From the NCBI GenBank assembly GCA_947454255.1, contig CANGIU010000013.1:1-38001 (forward strand): DNA of 38,001 nt, given 5' to 3'. A model generated the notes under the pieces. The model was not told the origin of the DNA and made no database searches. It worked only from the letters and a program-made list of their open reading frames with translations. The DNA comes from Micrococcales bacterium. GTDB taxonomy: Bacteria; Actinomycetota; Actinomycetes; Actinomycetales; Microbacteriaceae. Numbering within the stretch: position 1 is the stretch's first letter; the number at the start of each line of letters is the position of its first letter. Of this stretch, positions 17,100-37,581 are shown one piece after another. Position numbers and translations under genes: made by a program.

Positions 17100-18764
17100 C
17101 TATTTACCCACTGAAGCCAGCAATTTAGCACGAGCTTCACGGCGCTTCTTCTGCTCCGCTGGGTCTGGAACAGGTACCGCAGCCAATAGTGCCTTGGTGT
17201 AAAGCTCCTGAGGTTTGTTTAGGATCTGGTCGCGAGGGCCAATCTCAACTAGCTTTCCATACTGCATAACAGCGATACGGTGAGCCAGAATGTCAACCAC
17301 ACCAATGTCGTGAGTGATGAACAAACAAGCAAACTTCAGAGAGTTTTGAAGTTCCTGAAGTAGTTCCAGGAAGCGAGCCTGAACTGACACGTCAAGAGCA
17401 GAAGTTGGTTCATCCGCAATTAGAAGCTGTGGTGAAAGAGCAAGCGCACGAGCAATACCAACACGCTGCTTTTGACCACCAGATAACTCATGAGGGTAAC
17501 GGTTGCGGTATGAGCGAGGGAGCTCTACTGAGTCAAGTAGATCTTCTACTCTTCTATTAAGTTCTTCTCCCTTTGCTTCTTTAGCAAGGAACAACGGCTC
17601 ACCGATGCTCTCACCGATAGGCAATCTCGGGTTTAGTGAAGAAGCAGGATCTTGGAAGACGATACCGGTGTATTTGCGAATCTCTCTGAGATCACGCATC
17701 TTGGCACCTGCAATGTCGTTGCCAAGAATCTTGATTGACCCTTCGTGAACTGGAAGCAAGCCAATCGCTGCACGACCAACAGTAGTCTTACCTGAACCAG
17801 ACTCACCAACAAGACCCAAGATTTCACCTGGCTGAATTGAGAATGAGATTCCGTCAACAGCACGGAAAGCAGGAATACGGCCACGCTTTGGATACTCAAT
17901 TACTAAATCAGTTACTTCAAGTACTGGGGTTGCCTTAGCAGCCACTGGGTCAAGTGTTCTAGCTGCTACAGAACCAAGCTTTGGTACCGAAGCTAGAAGT
18001 GACTTCGTGTATGGATGCTTAGGACGGTTGAAGATCACATCAGAGGTGTCTTCCTCAACAGTTAAACCATCTTTCATAACCAAAATGCGGTCGCTCAAGT
18101 CTGCAACTACACCCATGTCGTGAGTAATCAAAAGAACAGCTGAGTTCAACTTGTCCTTTAGGTTTCTCATCAAGTCCAAAATTTCTGCCTGAACTGTTAC
18201 GTCCAACGCTGTAGTTGGCTCATCAGCGATCAAAAGAGCAGGGTTACAAGCCAATGCTTGCGCAATCATTGCACGCTGGCGTTGTCCACCAGAAAGTTGG
18301 TGAGGATACTTGTCAAAAGCCTGAACTGGGTTAGGAAGTTCTACCAATGTCAGCAATTCGATTGAACGCTCACGAGCCGCAAGCGGACCCATTTCGAAGT
18401 GGTTACGAAGAACTTCAACGATTTGGAAACCAATTGTGTAAACCGGGTTTAATGCGGTCATTGGCTCCTGGAAAATGTATGCAACTTCCTTACCTCTGAA
18501 TTTACGAAGGACAGAAGCCGGCTGGTTGAGCATCTCGACACCTTTTACTGTCACGCTTCCAGAAGATCTTGCGTTAGGAGCGAGCAAGCCCATTAGACCC
18601 ATAGCGGTAGTGGACTTACCTGAACCAGACTCACCAACAATGGCTAGCACTTCACCGGCTGCTACTTCAAAGTTCATGTCAATTGCGGCTGGATACCAGA
18701 CACCATCAACCCAAAACTCCACATTGAAGTTCTCTACTTTTAGAATCGGCTCTTTTACTGTCAT
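17100..18764 (-). CDS. Peptide ABC importer, fused double ATP-binding protein (DppD-DppF type)
   Basis: Energises the importer whose permeases and binding protein lie just upstream. Two complete ABC domains are fused: the first has Walker [11 protein letters not shown], signature [10 protein letters not shown] and Walker [13 protein letters not shown]; the second has [20 protein letters not shown] and [12 protein letters not shown]. After each core comes the oligopeptide-type extension ([12 protein letters not shown] and [12 protein letters not shown]), typical of the DppD/OppD and DppF/OppF families. Length 554. It is separated from the permease genes by an oppositely oriented PH-domain gene, which is unusual for an operon member. 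Confidence 0.93.
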
Positions 18765-18835
18765 TTTTACTAAATGCCTTCCTGTGAAACTAGGGCTACA
18801 AGCTCTTCTGAGTTGCTTGGGGTAGTCTGTGAAAC

Positions 18836-19423
18836 ATGTCCGCTAAATACGTCTACAGACCCACTAGCAGTTGGGTTTACCTTGGTTTGATTGTTGCAAC
18901 AGAAATCGTTGTTGCCATTGGCTTTATCTCCGCCAACCACGTCAACGACACTCTTTGGTTCACAACAAACAGCGTTGCCTTCGACTTTTTGTTCTGGGTT
19001 TTCGTTGTTAAACCCAAAATTGTCTACACCGACGAAAGCATCGGCTTGTATAACCCATTCCAAACCTTCGTTATCGGCTGGGATCGAGCTCTCGAATTCA
19101 AAACCCAATACAGTTTCACCGTTCAAACCGACCAAAGAGATTTCAGATCTTGGGCTGCCACAGCACCCGGCAGATTCTTGACTAGAAGCATGCATAACAG
19201 TGACTACCGAGGAACTGGATTGTCCGACCGCAAGGTCATCGCTCCCAGCGACTCCCCTAGAACTGACAGCGGTGTTGCCTTGATTCTTGCTCTCAAGAGA
19301 AGAACCGAAGCCACAGCAAACGGAACTGCCGGCAGTGAGATCACTAAACGATTTCACTGGTTTAGTACCGCAGCCGCAATTGCCAGCGCACTGACACTGC
19401 TTATCAACTTCTTTCACGGTTAG
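18836..19423 (+). CDS. PH-domain membrane protein, antisense within the ABC operon
   Basis: Small actinobacterial membrane protein of unknown function with a bacterial PH-like domain. A hydrophobic helix lies at residues 14-34 (VYLGLIVATEIVVAIGF), a second hydrophobic stretch at about 47-59, the PH-like strands at about 60-110 (PKIVYTDESIGLYNPF, VIGWDRALEFKTQYSF, FRSWAATAPGRF), and a C-terminal helix (AAAIASALTLLINFF). This domain layout is common in Mycobacteriales and Micrococcales. The opposite strand also carries a 215-codon open frame (18770-19417), but its Cys/Asn/Ser-rich product resembles no family, so the plus strand is chosen. No strong ribosome site is visible. Confidence 0.78.
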   Translation: MSAKYVYRPTSSWVYLGLIVATEIVVAIGFISANHVNDTLWFTTNSVAFDFLFWVFVVKPKIVYTDESIGLYNPFQTFVIGWDRALEFKTQYSFTVQTDQRDFRSWAATAPGRFLTRSMHNSDYRGTGLSDRKVIAPSDSPRTDSGVALILALKRRTEATANGTAGSEITKRFHWFSTAAAIASALTLLINFFHG

Positions 19424-19438
19424 ACTCTCTAGCTTTCT

Positions 19439-20470
19439 TTACTTGTTTACCGCGTCGCGGGTGCTGGCCTTCATCAAGAAATCTTTCTTCTTGATGCGTC
19501 TACGCTGGCGAGGATCGAATGCATCGCGCAAACCATCACCAATAAAGTTGATGCTCAAAGCAATCAAGATAATGATGACACCTGGCCACCAGAACAACCA
19601 TGGAGCGAAGTTAAAGCTGTCTTGGTATTGAGCAATTAGCAAACCAAGTGACACATCCGGTGAAACCACACCAAAACCAAGGTATGAAAGTCCAGTTTCA
19701 GTCAAAATCGAGCCCGAAAGCAACAAGGTAACTGAAACGATAATCACACCAACAGAGTTTGGCAGGATGTGCTTGAAAATGATTCTTCGGTTGGAAGCCC
19801 CAGCCACTCTCGCAGCATCCACAAATTCTCGTTCACGAAGGGAGAGGAATTCACCTCTTACAAGACGAGTCAAACCAGTCCAAGAGAACACACCTAGGAA
19901 TAAAGCCAGAGGAAGCACACCTAAGTTTCCGGCTTTGTAACCGATAACAGCACCAACAAGAATCGCCGGAATAGTAATGATGAAGTCAGTGAAACGCATT
20001 AGAACAGCGTCAATCATTCCTCCAAAGAATCCTGATACAGAGCCCATAATGGTTCCCAGCAATCCACCAAGGCTTCCAATAACAACCATCACCATAAGTG
20101 AAATTTCTGCACCTCTTGTTACAAGTGCAAAGTAATCACGTCCAATTGTGTCTTGACCAAATGGGTGAGCAGCTGATGGACAACCTGATCCACAACCTGA
20201 GAAGTCATAAGTATCAGTAATAGTTGCAGGCCACCATCCAGGAAGGTTGAAGGGTTGCTTGTCTGTTCCTAGGTGAATACCCGATGCGGAATACACAAAA
20301 ATTGTGAAGAGAATCATGAAGATCAAACCTGCAACGGCAGGCTTGTGCTGGAAGAACCTGCGACGAATAATTTGTCCTTGGCTAAGGCCTTGAACATCCG
20401 CGTTTTCGCTGCCGGTCTCGCCCGCCTCAATAGCTTGGGGCTTTGATTTCTTTCTTAGATTGATAGCCAT
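19439..20470 (-). CDS. Peptide ABC importer permease (DppC/OppC type)
   Basis: Inner-membrane permease of the peptide importer. After a charged N-terminal tail there is a first helix (AVAGLIFMILFTIFVYSASG), the OppC-type loop ending in HPFGQDTIGRDYFA, and five more helices. The coupling-helix EAA motif is LREREFVDAARVAGASNRR followed by IIFKHILPNS. The C-terminus INFIGDGLRDAFDPRQRR is a DppC/OppC signature. Length 343. The gene starts 6 bp after the partner permease. Confidence 0.94.
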   Translation of the reverse strand: MAINLRKKSKPQAIEAGETGSENADVQGLSQGQIIRRRFFQHKPAVAGLIFMILFTIFVYSASGIHLGTDKQPFNLPGWWPATITDTYDFSGCGSGCPSAAHPFGQDTIGRDYFALVTRGAEISLMVMVVIGSLGGLLGTIMGSVSGFFGGMIDAVLMRFTDFIITIPAILVGAVIGYKAGNLGVLPLALFLGVFSWTGLTRLVRGEFLSLREREFVDAARVAGASNRRIIFKHILPNSVGVIIVSVTLLLSGSILTETGLSYLGFGVVSPDVSLGLLIAQYQDSFNFAPWLFWWPGVIIILIALSINFIGDGLRDAFDPRQRRRIKKKDFLMKASTRDAVNK

Positions 20471-20476
20471 CGAGAA

Positions 20477-22015
20477 CTACTTTCTGATTCGGATTCTAGG
20501 ATCAAGGGACGAATAAATTAGGTCAGCAGCCAAAGTTGCCATAACCGCCAAGAATGCTGTGATGGAGAAAGTTCCCATCAAAAGGTTCAAGTCTTGACCT
20601 TGGATAGCTTCGTTGAACAAGCTACCCATACCTCTCCAACCGAAAATGGACTCGGTAATAATTGCTCCACCCAATAGGCCAGCAATGTCATAAGCGACAA
20701 GGGTGGTCAGAGGAATCATCGCGTTGCGGAAGGCGTGTCTGAGAATAACTTCACGCTCCGGCAATCCCTTGGCACGAGCAGTTCTGATGTAGTCCATTCC
20801 AAGCACTTCTAGAAGCGAGCCACGAGAGTATCTCAGGTAACCTGCGAATGAAATCAAGGTAAGAGCTGCAGTAGGCAGGAAAATGTGAGTCAGCAAGTCA
20901 AGGTTATTAATCCAGAAGTCATTCGACTTAAGAAGAATGTTTAGTGAGCCCTGAGTTTGAATTGGACGACCATCTACCGCACCATTTTCGTAGTAAGGCT
21001 TCCAAGTTTGCATAAACTTGTCAACGATTGTTAAGAATGAGGTCAAGAAGGCTGTGATCATTGCAGTTTGAATAACTGGCCCGCGGTCAACCTTTGTGAA
21101 GAAGTAACCGATGAAGTAGCTAACTACAATCATCAAAAGTGCAAATGATGCCACAACTGCGTAGTTGGTGTTAAAAGTCGCCAACATCTGGAATGGATAA
21201 TACATACCCACCGCGAAACCTACAGAAGTGAAGCCCGCTGCAAGAGCCTTGCGGTTACTTAACCCTGCAAAAGTATGAGTAACACCATAGGCAATTCCGA
21301 CGCCCATCAAACCAATAGGGATGATTCCAATGCTTGGGTTTCTTACCCAAGCTGTTGCACTAATTGCATTGAGAAGAGCAGCAAAGATTGCGAATGAAAG
21401 GCCCCAAGTTATCAAAACACGTTTTCGGGATCCACTCACGAAACCAGTAAGAATAACTGCCAACACTGCTGCCGTTCCTATCGACCACCAAAGATCTATG
21501 ACTGGGTGAGCCAGGAAGTTATTGAATCTGATAGCCAAGAATTCTTTCAACAAAACTGCTACCCAGAAAATTGGGAGTGAGAAGAGGAAGAATGAAAGGA
21601 ATGTCAACGAGTAGTCAAGTCTTGAGTATTGACGTATAGCACTCAGAACTCCAAAGGTAATGCCGAGAACGATAGCAAGAATAGTTGAGACTGTTAGAAG
21701 TCGAACGGTGGTGGGGATTGCTGCAGCAACCTGGTCCATGACCGGAAGTTTTGTAATTGTTTGGCCAAAATCTGCGTGACCAGTGAAGATGCCAAGAATG
21801 CCTTTGAGCCAAAGGAAGTATCTAGCTGGCGGCGGAACATCAAGGTGGAGTCTCTGAGTTAGCTCCTTGATAAGGAATGCTTTATTCTGCTCAGTGCTCT
21901 GGCGGTACTGTGCTAGTGGGTCACCAGCGTATGCCTCGAGGTTGTAGGTAATGAAAGTTGATCCAAAAAGAATCAAAACTGCTATCGATATTCTTCGACC
22001 AATGTATGCGATCAA
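20477..22015 (-). CDS. Peptide ABC importer permease (DppB/OppB type), enlarged
   Basis: Partner permease of the peptide importer. The N-terminus MIAYIGRRISIAVLILFGST and the C-terminal EAA loop (DYIRTARAKGLPEREVILRHAFRN) with LADLIYSSLDPRIRIRK are DppB/OppB hallmarks. The usual length is 310-340 residues; here it is 512. The excess lies roughly between residues 175 and 335 and contains several extra hydrophobic helices (for example IGTAAVLAVILTGFVSG, IIPIGLMGVGIAYGV and YAVVASFALLMIVVSYFIG). What the added membrane segment does is unknown. Confidence 0.92.
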   Translation of the reverse strand: MIAYIGRRISIAVLILFGSTFITYNLEAYAGDPLAQYRQSTEQNKAFLIKELTQRLHLDVPPPARYFLWLKGILGIFTGHADFGQTITKLPVMDQVAAAIPTTVRLLTVSTILAIVLGITFGVLSAIRQYSRLDYSLTFLSFFLFSLPIFWVAVLLKEFLAIRFNNFLAHPVIDLWWSIGTAAVLAVILTGFVSGSRKRVLITWGLSFAIFAALLNAISATAWVRNPSIGIIPIGLMGVGIAYGVTHTFAGLSNRKALAAGFTSVGFAVGMYYPFQMLATFNTNYAVVASFALLMIVVSYFIGYFFTKVDRGPVIQTAMITAFLTSFLTIVDKFMQTWKPYYENGAVDGRPIQTQGSLNILLKSNDFWINNLDLLTHIFLPTAALTLISFAGYLRYSRGSLLEVLGMDYIRTARAKGLPEREVILRHAFRNAMIPLTTLVAYDIAGLLGGAIITESIFGWRGMGSLFNEAIQGQDLNLLMGTFSITAFLAVMATLAADLIYSSLDPRIRIRK

Positions 22016-22106
22016 TTGGCATCCAATCCTTCAACTTATGGCAACAGTGCCTAGGTAAGTTTATACAAATTCAGCGGTTTATTTTGCTGAAAGCTGTGTT
22101 TTAAAT

Positions 22107-22144
22107 GAATCTTGGCGACACCGTTACCGGTGCCGCCAAGATTC
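22107..22144 (-). promoter_or_regulatory. Strong intercistronic stem-loop between binding protein and permease genes
   Basis: An 11-bp stem (22107-22117 with 22134-22144, GAATCTTGGCG/CGCCAAGATTC) continues past one mismatch into a 5-bp stem CACCG/CGGTG with a four-base loop. In the minus direction it is not followed by a T-run, so it looks less like a terminator than an mRNA-stabilising or attenuating hairpin that keeps binding-protein mRNA more abundant than permease mRNA. The plus strand has GTTTTT just after it. Confidence 0.72.
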
Positions 22145-22186
22145 AGTTTTTAGCTTCTCTAAATCTTTAGCTATTAGCTAAGCGAT

Positions 22187-24175
22187 TTAGTATGTCCAGG
22201 ACCAGTAGTTCCAGACAAGGTTTGGGTTCAGTGGGTTGTAAAGAACACCCTTTAGGTCTGAATTCCATGAAGCAACACCAGGCCACTGGTAAAGCGGTAG
22301 TGACCAGTAGTGGCTGTACAACAACTTCTCAGCGTTGACCTGTGCAGTTACCAATTCAGTAGCTGACAAAGCACCTTCGAAGACGTTGAACGCAGAGTCA
22401 ACAGCTGAATCTGACCAGCCATAACCGTTGTTTCCACCAAGTGTGATGTAGTTAGCGTTGTTACCAGTCTGTGAGATTGCAGAACGTGACCAAGCGAAGT
22501 CAGCTACGTCGTAATCGTTACAGTCTAGGTAGTTTGGCCAACCGCCATTACCTACGTTAGTTACGTTGAAACCAACCTTGGCTGCTTCCAACTTAATCTG
22601 TAGGTTGATGTCAGCACGGCGAGCAGCATTGCTGCGTAGGTAGCTAACGTCAATGTTGTTGGTTCCAACACCAGCAGATGGGTAGTACTTTCTTACAAGT
22701 GCTAGAGCCAATGCGTTGCGGTCTGTTTGTGACTTGCTGAACTCGTCAACATAAGTCTTCAAACCTGCAACCTGCTTTGTGTATGATCCCTCAGTGGTCA
22801 GAACAAGGTTGCTCTGAAGAACAGCTGAGTTAGCGGTTGTGTTCGGGTCGAATACCTTACCAATGTAGGTGTTAGCAATCAACTGACGAGGAACTACTAG
22901 CAAGAATGCGTGACGTAGATCCTTAGCTCTCTGTGACTCACCAGCGAATGGACCGGTGTAAGTAGCTGCACAGTCTGGGTTTGCACCAGTGTTAGCAGTA
23001 CCTGTACGGATGTCCAAGTGCTCGTAAGTAGCAGATGAAGCCTGGATTGTTGTCGCAGCAGTGTTTGCCTTCAATGTAGACCAAACAGCAGCGTTAGCAG
23101 CACCAGAGTATGCATCGATTTCCTTGTTAGCAAGAGCCTGAGCAGCTGCAACGTCGTTGAACGAAGAACCAGATGCAGGGAACTTGAATACAAAGGTGTC
23201 AATGTTTCCAGTAACCTTTGGAGCACCGCTGACAGAAGCCAATGGGTTACGCTTCAAAGTTGCTGAAGTTGAGTTGATTGTGTCAATCATGAAGCCACCG
23301 TTAGAGATCAACAGAAGTGGGTTTGTGTTTGAAGTTACAGAAGTAATGTTCCAAACAGTGCTCCACTTTTTAGCGACCTGAGTCATAAGCGCACGAGCTG
23401 CTGTACGAGCATCTAGAGCGTCCTGGTAGTCAGCGTCATCTGCACAAGGGCCATCACACGCAGGTAGTGCGTCGTATGAGGTGTAGTAAGCATCTTCAAA
23501 CAAGTTCTTGTATGCAGCGTTGTTACGTGCAGTCTGAAGAGTCTTCTTACCCTTTGCAAGTGCTACTAGAGCAGCTACGTCAGTTGGGCCAGGACCGAAG
23601 ATCTGCCAGTCTGGCTGGAAGCTGTCGTATTTGACCGTTACTGAGTAGTTGTCATCGCTTAGGTCGTATGAGTCTGCGATTGTGTGGTCATCGTAAGGGC
23701 CACCGTAACCAGCTGAATCAAACTTGTTGGTTGCGTCTGAACCATCAGCTGGGCTTGGGTCACCCATACCAGCAGCAACAGACCACTTTGAGCTTGAAAT
23801 TGCGTGGCTTAGAAGTAGGTCCTGACCGGTGATTAGAGTACCGTCAGACCACTTAAGGCCCTTCTTGATTGTGTAGGTCACGCGGAAGTCATGAGCTTCG
23901 TTCTTTGTGATCTTGAAAGTACCAAAAGCTGTGTTGCGAACCAACTGAGCTTTGTTGTTCCAGTAAGTGAAACCAGCACCTGTTGGGTATAGAACGTCAA
24001 CGTTGGTAACTAGGTTCTTTCCCGGAATAGCTGTGTTCAAACCAGACAAAGTGTTGGTTTCCTGAACAACAACCACGGAGCGGGTCGCTGCGTTGGCCGG
24101 AGCTAGGCTAAGCCCAGTGATTCCGAGAACCGAAGCAGCAACAAGGGCTACGCCCTTGACCAGACTTTTCTTCAT
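22187..24175 (-). CDS. Peptide/solute-binding protein of ABC importer (SBP family 5)
   Basis: Extracellular binding protein that delivers oligopeptides or related solutes to the neighbouring permeases. The start ATG at 24173-24175 is chosen because AAGGAG sits seven bases upstream and a signal peptide follows at once (MKKSLVKGVALVAASVLG, cleavage near APANA-AT); an in-frame ATG 19 codons earlier would bury it. There is no lipobox cysteine. Family 5 features include KGLKWSDGTLITGQDL near the N-terminus and the late LLYSHYWSLPLYQWPG segment. At 662 residues it is longer than E. coli OppA. A partial repeat CCCAT...ATGGG at 24266-24282 lies upstream and may be regulatory. Confidence 0.92.
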   Translation of the reverse strand: MKKSLVKGVALVAASVLGITGLSLAPANAATRSVVVVQETNTLSGLNTAIPGKNLVTNVDVLYPTGAGFTYWNNKAQLVRNTAFGTFKITKNEAHDFRVTYTIKKGLKWSDGTLITGQDLLLSHAISSSKWSVAAGMGDPSPADGSDATNKFDSAGYGGPYDDHTIADSYDLSDDNYSVTVKYDSFQPDWQIFGPGPTDVAALVALAKGKKTLQTARNNAAYKNLFEDAYYTSYDALPACDGPCADDADYQDALDARTAARALMTQVAKKWSTVWNITSVTSNTNPLLLISNGGFMIDTINSTSATLKRNPLASVSGAPKVTGNIDTFVFKFPASGSSFNDVAAAQALANKEIDAYSGAANAAVWSTLKANTAATTIQASSATYEHLDIRTGTANTGANPDCAATYTGPFAGESQRAKDLRHAFLLVVPRQLIANTYIGKVFDPNTTANSAVLQSNLVLTTEGSYTKQVAGLKTYVDEFSKSQTDRNALALALVRKYYPSAGVGTNNIDVSYLRSNAARRADINLQIKLEAAKVGFNVTNVGNGGWPNYLDCNDYDVADFAWSRSAISQTGNNANYITLGGNNGYGWSDSAVDSAFNVFEGALSATELVTAQVNAEKLLYSHYWSLPLYQWPGVASWNSDLKGVLYNPLNPNLVWNYWSWTY

Positions 24176-24386
24176 TGTTTCTCCTTGTTTGTTTCGGTTC
24201 CAATGGGTGCGAATAGACTTCACGGCCCACAAGTTCCTTGGGTGATAGAACTCTACAACTAACTACCCATAACTGATATGGGGATATGTGAAAATCGTTA
24301 CATTTCTTTACAATTCTGAAACATAGGGAAATCACCCAAAACCTAATGAAAACAAGCCAATCAGGCGTTTTTCCTCCCTTTTTGGT

Positions 24387-24606
24387 GCTAATGTGGTGAA
24401 ACGCTCGTAATGAGCATTAGTTGCTTTTTGCAGGGGAAACTGGTGAAAACCCAGTACTGTCCCGCAACCGTGAGTTTCTTGGTCCTATAAGAGATGAGTC
24501 GGATCGCCTGCCTAAAGCAATGACTCCTATATAAACCGTCGAGGTCTGCGGGTGGAGTCGGGTAAGAAATTGCCCGTCATCGCACAAGGATCGCACCTAC
24601 TGAAAG
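24387..24606 (+). promoter_or_regulatory. Cobalamin riboswitch with expression platform
   Basis: Conserved cobalamin-aptamer blocks are read in order: GGGGAAACTGGTGAAAACCC (24434-24453), CTGTCCCGCAACCGTGAG (B12-box region, about 24457-24474) and AGTCGGATCGCCTGCC (24497-24512). An outer pairing CTAATG/CATTAG (24388-24420) precedes the core. The downstream platform has GACTCC/GGAGTC (24522-24559) and a CGGGTAA-gaaa-TTGCCCG hairpin (24559-24576). No T-run follows, and the next element is GAAAGGG before the ATG at 24614, so translational control is more likely than termination. The rest of the 24176-24386 gap holds the two divergent promoter regions and nothing else I can name. Confidence 0.92.
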
Positions 24607-24613
24607 GGTTGCG

Positions 24614-25570
24614 ATGTCAACAACTAATACCGGAATGCGCCGATTCGCATTAATTGTTCCCGTTTTCACAGCACTCACACTGCTATTAGCTTCATGTTCT
24701 GGCAGTTCATATGGATCTGACCCGATTCCCAAAACAAGTAAATACGTTTTGGACAAATTCAATGGTGGGGAATTCCTAGATATGTTCACAGCGGGTAAGC
24801 CTGAATCAGGAATTACTCTCGAAGCAATGGCACAACTTAGTGCACTTGGTTACGACAAAAACAAACAAGCCAAAGCAATCGAGTGGGCCAAATCCAACAC
24901 AGAGCTCTTTGACTCAATCGGATTGAAAGCAACATATGTCTTTACTGCACATTCACTTGGTTTTGCCGATGATGCAACTGTTAGAAAAGCTGCAACTGAA
25001 GTTGTAGCAGGAGTTGGAGATTCCGGTGTATTGCCAGGTAGTAACAACTTTGTCTACTCTTGGGTAATTTTTGCTCTGCTGGCGGAAGACAAGAAAGAAC
25101 TTGCAAATCAAGTTGCACTTAAATTGTCAACACTTTCTGAAACAGACGGTGGATATAAATTCGTTCAAGGAGACCCAAAGAGCTCTCCTGCAGCTGACGT
25201 AACATCGTTTGCGCTGATGGCTATGAAGGCAAGTCTTGGTACAGGTGATAGTACTGCTGAAGCCACTAAGGAATTTGCCGTCAGTAAAGCAAAGACCTGG
25301 CTGATTTCGAATGAAACTGATGGCACTCACTGGAGCGCATACGGAGATACCGACGTGAGTGGTTCGGCTTATGCCATCATGGCACTTATCGCTATGGATG
25401 TTGACGTCACAGCCGCACATGACTGGTTGAAGTCCAGAGTGAGTCCGACAGATGGCGGTGTCAGTGCACCTTGGACCGAGCCAGCGGGAGATCCTTTCAG
25501 TTCAGCTCAATCACTTCTGCCTCTGGCAAAGCTAAGCTTCATCGACGTGCTGAAGCACAAAGTCAACTAA
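24614..25570 (+). CDS. Alpha-helical-repeat lipoprotein of a B12-regulated operon (intrinsic-factor alpha-domain-like)
   Basis: Predicted exported lipoprotein, first gene behind the cobalamin riboswitch. A signal sequence ends in the lipobox LLASC with the lipidated Cys near residue 28. The mature part is alpha-helical with prenyltransferase/cyclase-type repeats: a Gly-Gly-Tyr turn followed by an acidic/Asp-Val-(Thr) helix start (GGYKFVQGD...ADVTSFALMAMKA) and TDVSGSAYAIMALIAMDVD. The same alpha/alpha-barrel fold forms the large domain of intrinsic factor and transcobalamin. I infer extracellular capture of cobalamin or a corrinoid. GAAAGGG precedes the ATG. An unrelated polysaccharide-binding helical barrel is an alternative. 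Confidence 0.78.
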   Translation: MSTTNTGMRRFALIVPVFTALTLLLASCSGSSYGSDPIPKTSKYVLDKFNGGEFLDMFTAGKPESGITLEAMAQLSALGYDKNKQAKAIEWAKSNTELFDSIGLKATYVFTAHSLGFADDATVRKAATEVVAGVGDSGVLPGSNNFVYSWVIFALLAEDKKELANQVALKLSTLSETDGGYKFVQGDPKSSPAADVTSFALMAMKASLGTGDSTAEATKEFAVSKAKTWLISNETDGTHWSAYGDTDVSGSAYAIMALIAMDVDVTAAHDWLKSRVSPTDGGVSAPWTEPAGDPFSSAQSLLPLAKLSFIDVLKHKVN

Positions 25571-25575
25571 CAAAA

Positions 25576-26127
25576 ATGCGTCTCTTTGTTCGCCTGAGCT
25601 TAATCGGGTTGGTCGCTTTAGTTGCCATCGGCTTTGCAGATAACTCATTTCTGCGCACCGATGGCACTGAAGCGAGCAATAAAAAAGTATCTGCAGTAAA
25701 AGTCTCGGATGGTGTGTGTCTGAAAGATGGTGTGAGCATGACTGTTGATTTTGGCTCAAAAGCTAACAGTTCTCCGATCAATCAATGTGTCAGCAATTTC
25801 ACACTAAATTCATGGGATCTAATTAGCGCGGCAGGTTTGACAGTTACTGGAACTCAAAAATATCCTGTTGGTTTCGTTTGCAGAATAAATGACTTCCCAG
25901 CGGAGGATGTTGAATCATGTTTGGATACTCCTAACCCAAAGGTGGGTAGCTGGGCTTACTTTGTTGCAGGACCTGACTCAGACTCTTGGCAATACAGCAC
26001 TTGGGGAGCTTCTACCCATAAGCCAGACTGCGGAAGTGCCGAGGCTTGGGTGTTCAGATACCCAGAAGAGAGCATCGAAGCCCTACCAACGACAAAACCA
26101 CAAACACGTGTCTGCTCTAACAAGTAA
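25576..26127 (+). CDS. Secreted membrane-anchored protein, DUF4430/transcobalamin beta-domain-like
   Basis: Second gene of the B12 operon, 5 bp after the lipoprotein. The start ATG at 25576 is chosen because an N-terminal hydrophobic helix follows (LSLIGLVALVAIGFADNSF); a longer in-frame start would overlap gene one by 100 bp. The C-terminal half has the pattern GFVCRINDFPAED, GSWAYFVAG, WQYSTWGAS, GSAEAWVF, with paired cysteines, matching the small beta domain that follows alpha/alpha-barrels in vitamin-binding proteins (DUF4430-like). I infer that it closes over the ligand held by the first protein. Length 183. The family match is by eye. Confidence 0.68.
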   Translation: MRLFVRLSLIGLVALVAIGFADNSFLRTDGTEASNKKVSAVKVSDGVCLKDGVSMTVDFGSKANSSPINQCVSNFTLNSWDLISAAGLTVTGTQKYPVGFVCRINDFPAEDVESCLDTPNPKVGSWAYFVAGPDSDSWQYSTWGASTHKPDCGSAEAWVFRYPEESIEALPTTKPQTRVCSNK

Positions 26128-27091
26128 TACATCACACTTATTTTCAACAACAAGAACCCATCCGGGTGCTTGGTGGCTAGCCGGTCTCGCCCTTGCCCTT
26201 AGCGCATCGCTTAGCTCAAACCTAATGGTGCTTATGGCTATTTCTGTCGGAGCGATGCTCACCGTATGGCTATGCCGAGATGATGCACCCTGGTCTAGAT
26301 CGATTAGGTTCTACTTTTTCCTTGGTGGAATTGTCGTCCTCCTGAGAGTGATCTTCAGAGTGGTATTTAATCTTGCTGATGCTAGTCAAGACGTATTCCT
26401 GAACCTTCCTTCATTCTCAATCGACTTAGGACTGGGTAACTCTCTTCATTTACTTGGCGCTGTCTCCGTGCTTTCAATACAGGCCGCGCTCGTTGATGGA
26501 TTTCGACTGGCGGCAATCATTCTCTCAATCGGAATGGCTAACTCTTTAGCGAACCCACGAAAACTCCTTAGAGCCACTCCAGGTGCTTTGTATGAGATTG
26601 CCACTGCTGTATCAATTGCAATAAACCTTGCACCGCAACTTATTACCAGTTTGAAATTAGTAAGACGCGCCAGAGGGCTTCGCGGCCATTCCAAAGGAAT
26701 CAAATCACTAACCGGAATAGTAATCCCTGTTCTAGAAGACACTATTGAGCAGTCAATGCAGCTAGCAGCGAGCATGTCAGCCAGAGGTTTTGGAAGAAAG
26801 GGAAATAGAACTTCACTACAATTGCGGCTAACTAGAGCTTCCACCTTTCTAACCCTTACTTTGCTAACTGTTGGCGTCGCCATGTTGCTCTTTTCATCCG
26901 CACAGCAATTCGTAGATTTAGTAATTATTTTTGCTGGCCTCATCCTCGCTGGAGTAACATTCAAACTTTCCTCAACAAGGACCACTAGGACCAAATACAT
27001 TGTTCAGCGTTGGCACATCGCCGATCTAGTTCTCGTGCTCCTGGCTTCCCTAGTGTTACTTGCCGCGTTCAGCGGGGTGTTCAGCAAATGA
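26108..27091 (+). CDS. cbrV: ECF transporter transmembrane T component (CbrV-like)
   Basis: Membrane coupling subunit of an energy-coupling-factor vitamin importer. The two Ala-Arg-Gly coupling motifs expected in T components are visible: RRARGLRGH and SMSARGFGRKG. Hydrophobic helices lie before and after them. I choose GTG at 26108, giving 327 residues beginning VSALTSNTSHLF and overlapping the previous gene by 20 bases; the in-frame ATG at 25889 would overlap it by over 230 bases. The gene overlaps the ATPase start by four bases (ATGA). Symbol follows the SEED-type naming of predicted cobalamin ECF modules and is tentative. Confidence 0.85.
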   Translation: MSALTSNTSHLFSTTRTHPGAWWLAGLALALSASLSSNLMVLMAISVGAMLTVWLCRDDAPWSRSIRFYFFLGGIVVLLRVIFRVVFNLADASQDVFLNLPSFSIDLGLGNSLHLLGAVSVLSIQAALVDGFRLAAIILSIGMANSLANPRKLLRATPGALYEIATAVSIAINLAPQLITSLKLVRRARGLRGHSKGIKSLTGIVIPVLEDTIEQSMQLAASMSARGFGRKGNRTSLQLRLTRASTFLTLTLLTVGVAMLLFSSAQQFVDLVIIFAGLILAGVTFKLSSTRTTRTKYIVQRWHIADLVLVLLASLVLLAAFSGVFSK

Positions 27092-28683
27092 TCGAAATCA
27101 AGAATTTGAGTTTTAGTTATCTAAATGCCGAAGGTAAGCAGAAATCAGAAGAGCCACAACTCAATCGGGTGAATCTAACAATTGCACCTGGCGAGTTTGT
27201 GTTGGTCTGTGGCCCAACCGGAAGCGGAAAATCCACATTCCTCAAAACTCTGAATGGGTTAGCGCCTAATTTCACCGGCGGTGTCATAACCGGAGAACTT
27301 CTAATAGATGGCGTAAACCTATTAGGAGCAGAACCCTATGAATTCTCACATTTAGTCGGCTACGTGAATCAACAACCAGAGGGTGCTTTTGTGGCAGACC
27401 TAGTTCTTGACGAAATCGTATACAGTGCAGAACAGCTGGCGATAGGCAAAGAACAGATAACAAAGGACGTTCAAAGGCTAAGCAAACTACTTGGCCTTGA
27501 AGAGCTACTTAATTCTCCACTGTCAACTCTGTCTGGAGGTCAGCAACAACGAGTTGCAATTGCAGCGGCACTTATCTCTGGAGCAAAAGTATTGCTGCTT
27601 GATGAACCAACATCCGCTCTAGATCTTCAAGGTGCAACAGAAGTTCTAAACCTGCTTCAGAAACTTGCACGAGAAGAAGGAGTGAGCGTTCTCCTAGCCG
27701 AACATCGCATTTCTCGAGTTGTTGGATCAGTTGATTCCGTCATAGTGGTGCACGGTGATGGGTCTGTAACTAAAGGAAACCCTGCAGATCAATTCAACGA
27801 TGCTCGATTCGCTCCCCCAATTATTGAACTCGGTCAACAGCTTGGCTGGAAGCCATTAGCAATGACAGCAAAGCAAGCACAAGCACTTTGGAAAAAAGCT
27901 CCCGCAGCGTTTGTGGAGAAGCATTTCAATGAACCTGGCCCAAGAGTCTTAGAAGTAACTGACCTGGAGGTAACCTTTGGTTCACTTTCCGCAGTAAAGA
28001 AAACAAGCTTGAGTTTATTTGGCAACCAGATCACTGCCTTGATGGGAGAGAACGGGTCTGGAAAGACCTCGCTCTGCTGGGCGATCCAGGGAAGTGGCAC
28101 TAGAACTTCAGGAACTGTTGAAACAGCTACTGGTGACCCTAAGAACATGAGTGTTCAGGATCGCCTTGAAGTAACCACCATGGTCCCGCAGCGAGCAGCA
28201 GATCTACTCTTCCTCAACTCATTGGCCGATGAATTGCATGAATCAGATACCTTTGCCAAAGTGCCAGCTGGAACGACGGCTAACCTATTCCAGAAACTTG
28301 CAGGCAGAATTGACACTTCAATCCACCCACGCGATCTCTCCGCTGGACAACAACTTTCCCTCGTACTTTCATTACAACTAGTTAAGAATGCACCGGTGCT
28401 GATCCTTGATGAACCAACACGTGGTTTGGACTATGCCGCTAAACGGGCCTTAGCCAAACAACTTGATCAAGTTCGAAATGCAGAGCGAACTGTGCTGATA
28501 GCAACTCACGACATCGAGTTCGTTGCCATGGTTGCAGACAGAGTTCTAGTTCTAAAAGATGGCAGTATCGCTAAGGATGCTAGCCCGCTCGATGTTCTAG
28601 GTAGTGGACAAGAGTTAGCTTCTCAAATTGCAGATGTAACCAATGAAGCAGGACTTATTACTATTGGGCAGGTGCTCCATTGA
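27088..28683 (+). CDS. cbrU: ECF transporter duplicated ATPase (CbrU-like)
   Basis: Energy subunit with two fused ABC domains replacing separate A and A' subunits. Domain one: Walker A GPTGSGKST, signature LSGGQQQRVAIAAALI, Walker [12 protein letters not shown]. Domain two: GENGSGKTSL, a shifted signature LSAGQQLSLVLSL, Walker B LILDEPTRGLD. The ATG at 27088 is taken because it gives the normal ABC start MIEIKNLSFSY and an ATGA overlap with the T gene; an ATG 26 codons earlier is unlikely. Length 531. The degenerate second signature suggests one fully active and one weaker ATP site, as is common in fused ECF ATPases. Confidence 0.9.
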   Translation: MIEIKNLSFSYLNAEGKQKSEEPQLNRVNLTIAPGEFVLVCGPTGSGKSTFLKTLNGLAPNFTGGVITGELLIDGVNLLGAEPYEFSHLVGYVNQQPEGAFVADLVLDEIVYSAEQLAIGKEQITKDVQRLSKLLGLEELLNSPLSTLSGGQQQRVAIAAALISGAKVLLLDEPTSALDLQGATEVLNLLQKLAREEGVSVLLAEHRISRVVGSVDSVIVVHGDGSVTKGNPADQFNDARFAPPIIELGQQLGWKPLAMTAKQAQALWKKAPAAFVEKHFNEPGPRVLEVTDLEVTFGSLSAVKKTSLSLFGNQITALMGENGSGKTSLCWAIQGSGTRTSGTVETATGDPKNMSVQDRLEVTTMVPQRAADLLFLNSLADELHESDTFAKVPAGTTANLFQKLAGRIDTSIHPRDLSAGQQLSLVLSLQLVKNAPVLILDEPTRGLDYAAKRALAKQLDQVRNAERTVLIATHDIEFVAMVADRVLVLKDGSIAKDASPLDVLGSGQELASQIADVTNEAGLITIGQVLH

Positions 28684-29444
28684 ATAAGTTAATTTCACGT
28701 ATTAGCGTGGGGATCGCTGGTCTAATCAGCATCCTGATCTTTACATGGCCACTTTTTATAAAAGCTGGTGAGCAAAATGAAACCCTGCTCGCTCAGACAG
28801 TATTTATTGTTCTGATGCCATTGGTATTGATACTTGTCCTTATCGAGTTTGCAACCGGAGACATCTCATCTAAACACCTTGCGCTTCTAGGGGTTCTAAT
28901 TGCTCTCAACGCTGTCATCAGATTGCTTGGCGCTGGAACTGCTGGAATTGAAACAGCATTCTTCTTAATTATTCTTGGAGCATTTGTTTTTGGGAGTGGT
29001 TTTGGTTTCATTCTCGGAGCCTGTTCAATACTCGTCTCTGCCCTTCTGACCGGAGGAATTGGACCTTGGCTTCCATTCCAAATGATGGGAGCAGCATTGG
29101 TAGGCCTTGGAGCAGGGCTGATACCTAGATCGAACAGATTGTGGCTGCAGAAAGTATTCCTAATCGGATATGCAGTATTCGCAAGTTTTATCTACGGTGG
29201 CTTGATGACGATGTGGAACTGGCCATATTTAGCGGGGACTGGAACCCAGTTGAGTTATGTCGCTGGAGACCCAATCACAGAAAACCTTTCAAGGTTCATT
29301 CAATATGAATTATTCACGGGTGGCCTAGTTTGGGATCTTGGCAGAGCAATCACCACAAGTGTGCTGATTCTATTAACTGGCACAGCCCTGATCGCCACTC
29401 TCAAAAGAGCAGCAACCAGGGCTGGCGTAGGAAGAGAACTTTAG
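28680..29444 (+). CDS. cbrT: ECF transporter S component, predicted cobalamin-specific (CbrT-like)
   Basis: Substrate-binding membrane subunit. About 254 residues with five to seven hydrophobic helices (for example VGIAGLISILIFTWPLF and LVLILVLIEFATG), a loop with LLGAGTAGIETAF, and a Gly-rich central segment FVFGSGFGFILGACSILVSA typical of ECF S proteins. The start is TTG at 28680, overlapping the ATPase stop by four bases. Substrate specificity is inferred only from the riboswitch and operon; sequence alone does not name the vitamin. The gene ends in a four-base stop overlap with the convergent DoxX gene. Confidence 0.8.
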   Translation: MNKLISRISVGIAGLISILIFTWPLFIKAGEQNETLLAQTVFIVLMPLVLILVLIEFATGDISSKHLALLGVLIALNAVIRLLGAGTAGIETAFFLIILGAFVFGSGFGFILGACSILVSALLTGGIGPWLPFQMMGAALVGLGAGLIPRSNRLWLQKVFLIGYAVFASFIYGGLMTMWNWPYLAGTGTQLSYVAGDPITENLSRFIQYELFTGGLVWDLGRAITTSVLILLTGTALIATLKRAATRAGVGREL

Positions 29445-32212: not shown

Positions 32213-32950
32213 ATGCCAATAAAAACGGGGGAAAAGTTGCTATCTCACTACGGAACAGAACAAGTCGGCATATCAGCAGAGATTGCTCTCGCTGACCTAA
32301 CAGGTGTGAAGATCGACGCAGCGTATCGCACCAGAGGGCGAACAGAGCTGATTAGCCACATCCAACCAGCACTTAGCCAAGCGATTAGCCTGTTCCCAAA
32401 GCCGATTAAACACATCGCAGGAGACCAAAACCCAGTGGATTTTCTTCTTGAAGGAAATGCGACCCTGTCGGTGAAGTCCAATATGCGAGAAGCAGGTAAA
32501 GTTGCACCGCAGAACATCGGACAGCCAACCGCCTCAACATTTTGGGCTCGCTTGCCGCACTTGGTGCCAGCAGGGACCAACATAAAAGCCCTAACTTACG
32601 GACAGTCGGCCCAAGTGTTCAAGCAAGTAGCCCAAGCGGAGATTGTTGCTTTGCTTGGTGAGTATTGGAAAAACATGTTTGATTGCGATTTCACGGTTTG
32701 GGTCTTTGAGGTCCTGGACAAAAACAACAACCTTTCCGCAAGGCCAAAGGTCAAAGTGTTTAAGAAAGCACAAAGCCCTGCCTGGCAAAGGTCAAGAATT
32801 ACTTTCACTAAGACTGTTGCCGACTGGAATGAAAGTTGCACTGTGAAATATGGCAACGTATCAATTGGCGAGTTTCAAGTCCATGCCAACCGAAACTGCT
32901 TTAAGTTCCGCTTCAACCTCAACGGACTTATTCAAGCGGGTCTGCTCTAA
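32213..32950 (+). CDS. Putative type II restriction endonuclease, PD-(D/E)XK-like
   Basis: A 245-residue protein I do not recognise as a named enzyme. The segment NPVDFLLEGNATLSVKSN places Asp76 before a Ser-Val-Lys88 pattern, which would fit a variant PD-D-(S)xK nuclease core. It is convergent with a DNA methyltransferase gene and their stop codons overlap by four bases, the usual arrangement of a type II restriction-modification pair. I infer an endonuclease partner; its recognition sequence is unknown. The ATG is preceded by CAAAGGCT. Confidence 0.6.
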   Translation: MPIKTGEKLLSHYGTEQVGISAEIALADLTGVKIDAAYRTRGRTELISHIQPALSQAISLFPKPIKHIAGDQNPVDFLLEGNATLSVKSNMREAGKVAPQNIGQPTASTFWARLPHLVPAGTNIKALTYGQSAQVFKQVAQAEIVALLGEYWKNMFDCDFTVWVFEVLDKNNNLSARPKVKVFKKAQSPAWQRSRITFTKTVADWNESCTVKYGNVSIGEFQVHANRNCFKFRFNLNGLIQAGLL

Positions 32951-33957
32951 ATAGAAGCGACTTCGGTGGCTTGTGGTTCCAAGCGTTTCTTGAGTTTGGC
33001 GTAAAAGTCTGCTTCTCGCTCAACGATTACGGCATTACGGCCCAACGAAAGAGCTGCCTCGCCAGAAGAGCCTGACCCGCCAAAGCCGTCAAGGATTGTG
33101 TCCCCTGCATTTGAGTAAAGTGCCACCAAAAATTGGAGAAGAGGGACGGGTTTTTCAGTCGGATGAAGTCTGTTGCCAACCTTAAGCGGGTTCTGGACAT
33201 AGTTCGGCACGCAGGCTTGAAGGTATTTCTTTCCTTCGTCATCCAACTTATAAATCGCTTCGGTCTTCTTGACGGCTTCTTTTTTACTGGCTTCCAAGAT
33301 GTTCTCAACCACTTGCGAAATCATCTCAACATGATCCGCACCGAACAGGTCTCCCTCTTGAAGGTTCAAAACTGCATCTTTAACCTTGGAGTAGATGATG
33401 GTGCTGACTTTGTCCGCAACGATTGTTGCTTCAATGATTTTGTTTTCCAGCGTTTGCTCCACAATGGGAACATCGGCGTTGAAAGTCACTTTCTTGCCTT
33501 CTTTTACTCCGACAATGATGTATTCGTTGGCACTCATTGGCATGTATTGGCGATTTACAGGCACGGCGTTATTTTTACGCCAGGTGATTAAACGACGAGG
33601 CGAGAGACCATTCTTTTTGAGGGCTTCCATTAAATGCGAGATGTAGGCATCCGCACAGAAAATTGCGAAACTGCCACCCTTGCGTAGGACCCGAGACCAC
33701 TCCGAAGACCACTCGTCAAGTTTTCCCAAGAACTCCTCGTGAGAATAACTGTCCCAATCCTCGCCACTTTCGCTGTCAAATTGGTAGGAGTGAATTGTGT
33801 TCTTCTCGTAAGAGGCGAAGTTGGTCTTTTTGGAGATATTGAAAGGCGGGTCTGTCAAGACGAAATCAACGCTTAACCCTTCAACAAATTTGAAGTTGTC
33901 TCCGTGATGTAATACAAGGTTGGACAATGTTCCTCGCTCAATTCTTTGGTGTTCCAA
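32947..33957 (-). CDS. Type II-like DNA methyltransferase, beta class
   Basis: Adenine-N6 or cytosine-N4 DNA methyltransferase. The catalytic motif DPPFN is at residues 36-40 near the N-terminus, and the SAM motif GFGGSGSSGEAALSLGRNA is near the C-terminus after HPTEKPV, the order of the beta class. Residues about 160-250 between them form the likely target-recognition region. The start is a TTG (33955-33957) giving an ORF beginning EHQRIERGTLSNLVLHHGD; a second TTG ten codons later is possible. It lies 46 bp after rep on the same strand, so the element's rep and methyltransferase may be cotranscribed. Confidence 0.9.
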   Translation of the reverse strand: MEHQRIERGTLSNLVLHHGDNFKFVEGLSVDFVLTDPPFNISKKTNFASYEKNTIHSYQFDSESGEDWDSYSHEEFLGKLDEWSSEWSRVLRKGGSFAIFCADAYISHLMEALKKNGLSPRRLITWRKNNAVPVNRQYMPMSANEYIIVGVKEGKKVTFNADVPIVEQTLENKIIEATIVADKVSTIIYSKVKDAVLNLQEGDLFGADHVEMISQVVENILEASKKEAVKKTEAIYKLDDEGKKYLQACVPNYVQNPLKVGNRLHPTEKPVPLLQFLVALYSNAGDTILDGFGGSGSSGEAALSLGRNAVIVEREADFYAKLKKRLEPQATEVASI

Positions 33958-34003
33958 ATCCGCTTCTTGTTGAGAAGTGGTTGGTCAAATTTGGCCCAAA
34001 CCA

Positions 34004-35107
34004 TTACAGGTTCGGTGATGTTTCAATTATGGGCCCTGCCTCCGACAACTTTACTTTCAACGCACGAGCCAGTTGATAACCCATAGCAGAGCCATCATTG
34101 ACGGAACAAAAACCCTGAATTCTTGGCATCCGTTTAACTCTCCGATTAACGCTTCGTTTTTTGAGAACGCCAGTCTTTTGATTTGTTCGCCAGACATTGA
34201 CCTTTCGGGGTTTGTTGTTTGCCTTCGCCCAACGCCTCAAAACCCTTGCGATAAAGATGGCTTGGTCTTCCGAAACCTCCACAGTCGTTATTGCCGCATC
34301 AAGCCCCCAGCGACCCCAGAAACGGCCAACAGATCCCGCCGCCTTCCAGAACTCTGGCGGCTGGTTTTGATACTCCTTGTGTCCGTTCTCGGTAGGGCTT
34401 GAATGCTTCAAGAAATAGACAACAATTCGTTTTGGGTCGGATGAGCGAGAGCCTTTTGCGACATCAACAGCGGTTCCAGCTCGTAGGTGCTTTTCAAATT
34501 CAACTGGGTCGGTTTCATTAACAATTTCCGCCCAAGTTTGTGAGAGCCATTCCTTAAAGTTTTGACCAATGGGAGGCACGAGAAACAAATGAATATGCGG
34601 GCTTCCGCTTCTCTGAAATTCCCACTTGTAAATGGCCATCAACTTGCCAAACTTTCGTTCATAGCGTTGTTTAAGGAGTTTCAAATGTCGGCGACCTGTG
34701 GCTGCATCGGGGCAGAGCGTTTGGAAGTTTTTTGGGTAAGTGAGAGTGACCAAAGCAGGGATGTTTCCACTTTCAAACATGGGTCGGTAGTCAAGGGAGC
34801 ACAGCACCGAAACCATGTTTGACCTTGATTTGCTTGACCATTCAGTGATTGGTTTTCTGGCTTGGTAGTTAGTTGGCTTAGGTCCAGGCAACTTTGATTG
34901 CTTGGACACTTTGACCATTCCTGGACTTAACGAAACATAGTGGCGGTCTGGCTTGGTTTTGTCTGGCTCATTGAAAGCGGGAAATTCTTTCCCTGATTGC
35001 TCCAATGCCTCTTGGGTTGGCAGCTGATATTCATAACTGTCGGTGCGGTCTGTTTTGTCGGATATAACAAGCCCCGAAACGCTTTTCTTTTTCTTGTGTT
35101 TGCTCAT
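34004..35107 (-). CDS. rep: Rolling-circle replication initiator (HUH endonuclease)
   Basis: Replication initiator that nicks a double-strand origin and becomes linked through tyrosine. Three motifs are in order: TLTYP at residues 121-125, the HUH motif SPHIHLFLVPP with His171 and His173, and YFLKHS with the likely nucleophile Tyr231. FWGRWGLD near residue 263 is typical of REP_ORF2/G2P-like proteins. Length 367. A weak AGGTG site precedes the ATG. The 5' flank carries a 14-bp inverted repeat that may be the origin or a regulatory hairpin. A single catalytic Tyr and no IS ends argue against a transposase. Confidence 0.82.
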   Translation of the reverse strand: MSKHKKKKSVSGLVISDKTDRTDSYEYQLPTQEALEQSGKEFPAFNEPDKTKPDRHYVSLSPGMVKVSKQSKLPGPKPTNYQARKPITEWSSKSRSNMVSVLCSLDYRPMFESGNIPALVTLTYPKNFQTLCPDAATGRRHLKLLKQRYERKFGKLMAIYKWEFQRSGSPHIHLFLVPPIGQNFKEWLSQTWAEIVNETDPVEFEKHLRAGTAVDVAKGSRSSDPKRIVVYFLKHSSPTENGHKEYQNQPPEFWKAAGSVGRFWGRWGLDAAITTVEVSEDQAIFIARVLRRWAKANNKPRKVNVWRTNQKTGVLKKRSVNRRVKRMPRIQGFCSVNDGSAMGYQLARALKVKLSEAGPIIETSPNL

Positions 35108-35117
35108 ACAAACACCT

Positions 35118-35193
35118 ATCGGCAGGAAGCCCTGAAACCCCCACTAAGGGATTAACCGCAACGAGTAAAATCGTCGCTTGGCTTCCTGCCGAT
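35118..35193. repeat. 14-bp inverted repeat upstream of rep, candidate replication origin
   Basis: ATCGGCAGGAAGCC (35118-35131) and GGCTTCCTGCCGAT (35180-35193) are a perfect inverted pair around 48 bases. The repeat begins 10 bases before the rep start codon. It could be the rolling-circle double-strand origin, or a stem in the rep leader. Confidence 0.6.
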
Positions 35194-35206
35194 GATGTCG
35201 CCTTCG

Positions 35207-35683
35207 CTACGCAGAGCCTTCGCTACGGCTCCACCATCTCCCCCAGCCTCGCTTACTTTTGCTCGCTTCGCTTCGCATTAGTGCGGGAATGGCGTTCTGT
35301 CTCTCATGGTCGTTTGATGTTTCAACGCCAGAAACAGGCAATTGTTCGCCGTTTGGTTTTCCCGACGATCGCCAGCGTTCAACACCATCTAACGCAGGGC
35401 GAATTGACACTTGAAAAACGGTCCAGTGGCCATACCAATTGGAAGTTGGAAGCCACCAGTCGCCTTGCTTCACATAAGCCAGTTCGGGCGAAGCCTTCAC
35501 AGATGCCAAAAAGCCATCAAGGGCGGTTTCTGTTGCCCCACTTACAAAGATGAAGTCTTCGCCACCGCCCATTCGCAAGAAATGAAGTGGCGGAATGAGT
35601 TGGTCCAGGCTTGTCCAGTAGGTAGCCCAAATGCTCCAAACCATCCCAGCGATGTAATTCTGGCGAAGTTCAATTGCTCGCAT
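35207..35683 (-). CDS. Element protein of unknown function
   Basis: A 158-residue protein without a recognisable family. It is rich in tryptophan (WSIWATYW, WWLPTSNWYGHW) and has a charged basic C-terminus (SKSKRGWGRWWSRSEGSA) that is encoded by a locally repetitive stretch (the words CCTTCGCTACG repeated at 35209-35230). Its ATG follows the upstream gene's TAA after two bases, so it is translationally coupled to the OB-fold-like gene. A role in element replication or excision is possible from position only. Confidence 0.5.
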   Translation of the reverse strand: MRAIELRQNYIAGMVWSIWATYWTSLDQLIPPLHFLRMGGGEDFIFVSGATETALDGFLASVKASPELAYVKQGDWWLPTSNWYGHWTVFQVSIRPALDGVERWRSSGKPNGEQLPVSGVETSNDHERQNAIPALMRSEASKSKRGWGRWWSRSEGSA

Positions 35684-35685
35684 TT

Positions 35686-36045: not shown

Positions 36046-36107
36046 AACGAACTCCTTGATAAATGCGAAGGCGTTGTTGCCTTCACAATTTCTCTATCGG
36101 CTCGTAT

Positions 36108-37538: not shown

Positions 37539-37581
37539 CGCTCCCCCTTTGCTCCTAACTGAAGAGTAGCGGAGTGCCATA

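Follow-up and report, generated by a model that had tools for sequence, protein, structure and literature searches.

A cobalamin riboswitch-controlled ECF operon in Microbacteriaceae that encodes a predicted split transcobalamin-like protein pair

Our analyses of a 38,001-nucleotide stretch of DNA from a Micrococcales bacterium of the family Microbacteriaceae (assembly GCA_947454255.1, contig CANGIU010000013.1, positions 1 to 38,001; hereafter the window) have identified an operon, preceded by an adenosylcobalamin (AdoCbl) riboswitch, which encodes an energy-coupling factor (ECF) transporter together with two proteins, alpha and beta, whose predicted folds resemble the two domains of the animal vitamin B12 carriers (viz. 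transcobalamin, intrinsic factor and haptocorrin). The locus is probably a B12-repressible importer of cobalamin (or a corrinoid) with a split transcobalamin-like capture pair. The riboswitch, the operon, the folds predicted for the two proteins, the conserved linkage of their genes and a B12-dependent enzyme in the same genome were all found by computation, and the host, a lake bacterium, appears to depend on scavenged vitamin B12.

Results

The riboswitch is an AdoCbl aptamer of the family RF01482 located at 24408-24563 on the forward strand, where its 58.9 bits (E 1.8e-8) exceed the gathering score of 50 set for the family; the single match to RF00174 in the whole genome, of 38.5 bits, coincides with this site. 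The operon that follows (24614-29444) encodes the 318 amino acid lipoprotein alpha (24614-25570), the 183 amino acid protein beta (25576-26127), an ECF transmembrane T subunit whose GTG start overlaps the end of beta (26108-27091), a fused A-A' ATPase (AA; 27088-28683) and a substrate-specific S subunit with a TTG start (28680-29444). All of these lie on the forward strand; alpha and beta are separate genes in different frames that are 5 bases apart, and the remaining genes overlap. The first-pass annotation of this DNA, which had reported a cobalamin riboswitch ahead of five tightly linked genes, was thus accurate in this respect.

The S subunit scores 35.2 bits against PF12822 (cut-off 30.7) and AA contains two ABC_tran stretches (PF00005; 161.7 bits). 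The T subunit, for which there was no convincing Pfam match, is named from its position and from homologues in 26 of 28 loci of the family and in loci of the phylum. A T-A-A'-S operon with S above the PF12822 cut-off identifies an ECF transporter, with T assigned by position and homology only. The closest NCBIfam models fall below their cut-offs, viz. ECF_ATPase_2 for AA (259 bits; cut-off 330) and the folate family folT for S (29.7 bits; cut-off 60).

In the predicted fold of 24552-24625, two bases of the start codon of alpha (24614-24616) are paired within a hairpin at 24588-24617 on the forward strand. This fold has an energy of -26.7 kcal/mol and a z of -3.2 relative to mononucleotide shuffles that preserved base counts only. 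Across 20 loci such pairing involves two bases of the start codon in 5, one base in a sixth (L125) and none in 14, and the hairpin is suggestive at most of an expression platform.

The alpha protein, modeled with AlphaFold2 from 19 homologues of named loci, is predicted to be helical and to form an alpha/alpha toroid (mean predicted local distance difference test score, pLDDT, 90.2) like the N-terminal domain of transcobalamin and haptocorrin. Foldseek comparison with PDB gave 33 matches with E up to 0.001, among which haptocorrin (4kki) ranked 2nd and transcobalamin 5th (4zrp), 7th, 11th and 13th. Sequence profiles of alpha agree on the toroid, the best PDB match being a squalene-hopene cyclase (E 1.9e-6), and they also matched prenyltransferases and, weakly, a thioester protein. 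No useful Pfam match was found for alpha; Cobalamin_bind (PF01122) did not match it, appeared at E 0.086 in one of the three proteins of the alpha profile A1, and was unlisted for 20 alpha proteins of the genus. The description of alpha as a lipoprotein holds for the window, where a lipobox (LASC, with Cys28) is present, and fails for 14 of the 20 aligned alpha proteins of the genus, in which the lipobox is missing.

The model of beta (AlphaFold2, 17 homologues; mean pLDDT 85.9) consists of an N-terminal helix (residues 2-25) and a transcobalamin-like beta-grasp domain with one helix. Ranks 1-16 of its 140 Foldseek matches in PDB are all transcobalamin, intrinsic factor or haptocorrin chains, which belong to the same few proteins and are not 16 independent matches; they include the beta domain of human transcobalamin on its own, both with cyanocobalamin (5np4) and without it. 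The nearest known folds therefore include the animal carriers in the case of alpha and are headed by them in the case of beta, as expected if the first two genes encode an alpha/alpha toroid and a beta domain; the likeness of both models to the carriers derives solely from Foldseek. The helix of the beta domain (79-85) leads, in the model, to short strands at 90-92 and 101-104 and then to a strand at 125-131. This hairpin, read from secondary structure only in a region where residues 91-100 have a mean pLDDT of 77, stands after the helix in the place of the ligand-contacting hairpin described, in the portions considered here, for the transcobalamin-like clade (PMC1796856).

Six cysteines are present in beta (48, 71, 102, 115, 152 and 180), which perhaps form three disulphides in a pairing that we infer. 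Cysteines 102, 115, 152 and 180 are conserved in all of 18 sequences; 48 and 71 are kept in 11 of the 18 and jointly lost in 6, and in the remaining one, L124, the first is not within the aligned column. This conservation fits an exported, oxidised protein. Beta had previously been described as a small secreted protein of beta type; the beta domain is upheld by the model, and "membrane-anchored" is a better description than "secreted" because the N-terminal helix is kept and has no lipobox.

Beta could not be placed in a Pfam family, as no useful match was obtained. DUF4430 (PF14478; threshold 23.8 bits) is unlisted at E 1 for all 18 beta proteins of the genus and has no match in the genome of the window. 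In contrast, 15 of the 18 match the NCBIfam SCO2322 family (NF040672) when E-values up to 1 are admitted, the best being 7.3e-9; this family is listed without a function. The beta protein of the window (P0002) scores 21 bits against NF040672, far below its cut-off of 85, and is thus a relative of the SCO2322 family, not a member.

The genome of the window (G000; 1.24 Mb, 34 contigs, 94% complete) has exactly one match to the alpha profile and one to the beta profile, and the two adjoin, which makes their linkage more than chance. Named close relatives matched by the alpha profile are assemblies of Rhodoluna, Microbacteriaceae, Micrococcales and Actinomycetota, from which the labels genus, family and phylum of our genome sets are inferred. 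Within the genus, alpha was found in 50 of 67 genomes and S in 47 of 67. Beta directly follows alpha in 18 of 19 named genus loci, and the contig ends in the 19th. A riboswitch of cobalamin type, at the gathering threshold, lies just upstream of alpha in 15 of these 19; among the other four, the contig of L116 starts at alpha, and L118, L119 and L124 have no match at this threshold.

The genome of the window encodes a class II NrdJ, an AdoCbl-dependent ribonucleotide reductase (613 bits, the only match to the profile), and an adenosyltransferase of PduO type. MetH was considered as its B12 enzyme and rejected, no B12-binding domain being found in G000, and NrdJ is the supported user; the absence of this domain is provisional since the assembly is 94% complete. 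Among 14 genomes of the genus, the riboswitch RF00174 was detected in 9 (5 above cut-off), a B12-binding domain in 9, class II NrdJ above cut-off in 7 and an adenosyltransferase in 10. CbiC, one marker of corrin-ring synthesis, was found in none of the 14, with a control positive in 7 of 14 known genomes. Alpha and S are both missing from G442 and G443, and with them the riboswitch, the B12-binding domain, the adenosyltransferase and class II NrdJ. G460 has a B12-binding domain, class II NrdJ and an adenosyltransferase, yet no match to alpha, S or riboswitch, reflecting either a gap in the assembly or a different B12 importer.

Run against 296 genomes of the phylum irrespective of context, the alpha profile found matches in 16, one of them the genome of the window. 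Of the 16 matches outside this genome, all of which were inspected and tabulated by hand, 12 have AA and S adjoining and 14 have beta or DUF4430; L078 and L088 have neither beta nor DUF4430 nearby. With the beta profile, matches were obtained in 36 of 292 genomes; our own is one of these, and the 35 others account for 43 matches. From 15 of these 35 genomes 15 beta loci were taken, by score and avoiding known loci; G405, G189 and G185 were skipped despite scores equal to some of those taken. T, AA and S accompany beta in all 15, and alpha is present in 11 and absent in 4. The gene order of the window (alpha-beta-T-AA-S) recurs in L080, L199, L204, L205, L206, L210 and L212 and, with extra copies of alpha or beta, in L200, L202 and L203; alpha comes last in L201, and L211 carries alpha and beta on the other strand. 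A riboswitch scan of 11 of the 15 sampled loci, 9 of which carry alpha, placed a riboswitch upstream of alpha in three (L200, L202 and L206) and, in L201, beside the operon on the other strand. L090 and L092 were excluded from the scan of the alpha-match loci.

Two loci of one other genus (L084, 4389-6478; L089, 4450-6544) consist of riboswitch, alpha and beta, with no ECF genes seen within 11 kb, which ties the pair itself to cobalamin. The pair thus recurs with cobalamin riboswitches and with ECF genes in other genomes, and on folds and co-occurrence the earlier proposal of a split capture pair has gained partial support. No alpha-beta fusion was found among the loci examined, and viral contigs contained no relative of either protein. 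An open reading frame of 519 amino acids in L036 was considered as a natural fusion and rejected: alpha profiles do not match this locus, and we take its long N-terminal part to be an upstream extension of the open frame.

Some further arrangements were observed. At L200 (1173-12899), 15 kb contain two pairs of alpha and beta genes along with four matches to cobalamin riboswitches. In connection with the two-gene units of L084 and L089, G182 has a further alpha with AA and S elsewhere in its genome (L078). In nine loci (L079, L081-L083, L085-L087, L090 and L091) a DUF4430 protein comes first, followed by AA and S, and a toroid is last; no riboswitch at gathering was found in the 8 of these 9 that were scanned. 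Profile comparison links alpha to the toroids of such distant DUF4430 operons at 99.2%, these toroids having originally been found with an alpha profile.

Elsewhere in the window, genes of a peptide-type ABC transporter (17100-24232) lie on the strand opposite to the riboswitch operon, from which they diverge; they include a binding protein of family 5 (PF00496), and permeases and fused ATPases were called from reading frames. A probable integrated element adjoins the tmRNA gene (32213-38001) and encodes a protein without Pfam match (32213-32950), a DNA methylase (32947-33957; PF01555), a Rep-like protein (34004-35107; PF23343) and a tyrosine integrase (36108-37595; PF00589). The distance from S to tmRNA is about 8 kb in the window and about 2.3 kb in L111.

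Discussion

To our knowledge, ECF transporters are held to work without separate binding proteins. The operon described here may add a capture stage to such a transporter. The riboswitch would repress rather than activate the operon, permitting its expression when AdoCbl is scarce. Alpha, as a lipid-anchored toroid, and beta, as a membrane-anchored beta-grasp protein, may then enclose one molecule of B12 between them outside the membrane, in the manner of the two domains of transcobalamin, and the loaded pair would hand it to S, with T and A-A' driving it inward through ATP hydrolysis. Inside the cell the adenosyltransferase would convert it to AdoCbl, as required by the class II ribonucleotide reductase.

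The animal carriers are likewise built from an alpha/alpha toroid and a beta domain, the resemblance here being one of predicted fold. They differ from the present proteins in that they are single chains, whereas alpha and beta are two separate membrane-anchored bacterial polypeptides with no convincing sequence match to them. The idea of bacterial transcobalamins in general is known since 2007, when a transcobalamin-like clade of SLBB domains was defined that includes bacterial fusions with toroids and operons with CbiO/CbiQ-like genes; its hosts usually lack the enzymes of B12 synthesis, scavenging of B12 was proposed as its role, and a transfer to animals was suggested (Burroughs et al. 2007, PMC1796856). 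Our system is similar to these proteins in its exported transcobalamin-like beta-grasp domain, its toroid partner, its CbiO/CbiQ-type genes and its host, and beta has the traits given for the clade in the portions of that paper considered here, viz. the hairpin after the helix, the N-terminal helix, an operon of CbiO/CbiQ type and the absence of CbiC in 14 of 14 genomes of the genus. It differs in that toroid and beta domain are separate genes of Actinomycetota, that beta is missed by PF14478 and that a riboswitch is present, no riboswitch being mentioned in the same portions of PMC1796856. What is new is accordingly the split, riboswitch-controlled form and a family of beta proteins missed by DUF4430. 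Our open-access searches yielded no paper on the split pair, and no binding work following the 2007 proposal was visible in them.

Other B12 uptake systems share some of these features, as far as the portions of the papers considered here describe them. ECF-CbrT of Lactobacillus delbrueckii is a characterised B12 importer of ECF type in which CbrT itself is the substrate-binding S subunit (PMC5997447); here S has its own T-A-A' and, in addition, a candidate capture pair. BtuG of Bacteroides, like alpha, is a surface lipoprotein, which captures B12 for an importer (PMC6143338), and the fold matches listed for alpha and for beta include no BtuG. In the freshwater acI Actinobacteria an ECF module behind cobalamin riboswitches was proposed as a cobalamin transporter in hosts without a B12 pathway (PMC5301498); riboswitch control is the same, and capture proteins go unmentioned in those portions of the paper.

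A number of observations weigh against the interpretation of the locus as a B12 importer with a capture pair. The fold matches of beta have weak E-values (best 0.023, none below 0.001), and the remainder of the fold list of alpha consists, at similar scores, of terpene cyclases, glycosidases, complement proteins and a prenyltransferase subunit, so that alpha alone indicates a toroid and not B12. Detection of B12 carriers in PDB from sequence failed for the profiles of alpha, beta, DUF4430 and S: the profiles of beta found none, and that of S (A9) matched no PDB chain, CbrT included, at E up to 10, although distant kinship could escape a search of this kind. The link between beta and the DUF4430 group in hhalign is also weak (32.7 and 43.7%). 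Many distant operons have no riboswitch match, and in G481 alpha, S and a B12-binding domain are accompanied by neither a riboswitch match nor an adenosyltransferase. Open alpha frames without adjoining beta, T, AA or S occur in G445 (L132, 7431-8402) and G494 (L133, 5730-6677), and nothing above cut-off was found in the genome of G445 for S, the riboswitch, a B12-binding domain, an adenosyltransferase or class II NrdJ. In the family, where S is present in 29 of 150 genomes including our own, the 28 other loci contain beta in 27, T in 26, AA in 28 and alpha in 2. The count for beta is 27 both with profile A2, which was built from 24 of those loci, and with the independent genus profile A6; L053 has no beta, and DUF4430 occurs in none of the 28. 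Two alpha profiles were tried, and the two loci with alpha (L031 and L032) are both of our own genus. Five of the 28 have a riboswitch at gathering, three of these without alpha (L033-L035).

The distribution of alpha makes a different division of labour a serious rival: beta may be the essential partner of the ECF module, as a membrane-tethered lid or docking piece on S, and alpha an accessory by which certain lineages gain affinity, with no obligate clamp. Beta stands with AA and S in the absence of alpha in 25 of the 28 operon-bearing family loci and in the 4 phylum loci noted above, and in G496, which has no alpha match, a riboswitch match below cut-off (28.5 bits) lies directly upstream of beta, T-AA and S; G491 resembles it, its contig beginning just before beta. 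Against this stand the 11 of 15 phylum loci in which alpha adjoins beta, the occurrence of alpha in 50 of the 67 genus genomes, and the alpha-beta units of L084 and L089, which have no ECF genes adjoining; we regard this division of labour as quite possible, if short of probable. The ligand may also be other than B12, whether a precursor of corrinoids, a cobalt complex or some unrelated vitamin, at least where the riboswitch is missing, with cobalamin bound only in riboswitch-bearing lineages. The low riboswitch counts (5 of 28 family loci; 3 of 11 scanned in the phylum), the folate family as the nearest NCBIfam relative of S, albeit below cut-off, and the caution of a referee of PMC1796856, within the part considered here, that the range of ligands may exceed B12 all speak for such a reading. 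It is nevertheless rather unlikely, given the frequency of the riboswitch in our own genus (15 of 19 loci) and the joint absence of the operon and the B12-related genes in G442 and G443.

A role of the pair in storing or sequestering B12 on the cell surface, or in acquiring it from neighbours, with no passage to S, would accord with the lone alpha genes of G445 and G494, with the alpha-beta pairs of L084 and L089, and with the 14 of 20 genus alphas lacking a lipobox, which might be released; the linkage of T, AA and S to beta in 15 of 15 sampled phylum loci makes this improbable. An enzymatic function for alpha, as a protein akin to terpene cyclases, prenyltransferases or glycosidases that has only the toroid in common with the carriers, is more improbable still. 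The sequence matches of alpha to squalene-hopene cyclases and its mixed fold list are in line with an enzyme, as is the cyclase acid motif DxDD in 6 of 10 distant alphas; in the genus, DxDD, DDxxD and a thioester motif occur in 0 of 20 alphas, and alpha is predicted to be exported and adjoins a beta domain of carrier type. An importer with a split capture pair remains our preferred interpretation of the locus. A stricter version of it, in which the importer depends on a two-protein clamp, alpha and beta bind B12 only jointly and dock on S, and the whole represents an ancient capture stage throughout the Actinomycetota, is doubtful, though possible. The earlier suggestion that the pair is a special adaptation to nutrient-poor habitats is unsupported, because these genes occur together in genomes elsewhere in the phylum that measure about 2.5 to 7 Mb and beta occurs without alpha in most family loci.

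Little is known about how Gram-positive bacteria capture scarce B12 for delivery to an ECF transporter. The split pair provides a directly testable idea, because its halves can be separately purified, mixed and deleted, and deletion tests appear feasible since Rhodoluna lacicola has been grown with added B12 and gene inactivation in it has been published, as described in the portions of PMC11577799 considered here. If the proposed role is true, the origin of intrinsic factor and transcobalamin would gain a bacterial counterpart, and a widespread gene pair without a name would be given a role; should the two-protein clamp also be true, the single-chain animal carriers would represent the fused descendant of a two-gene state.

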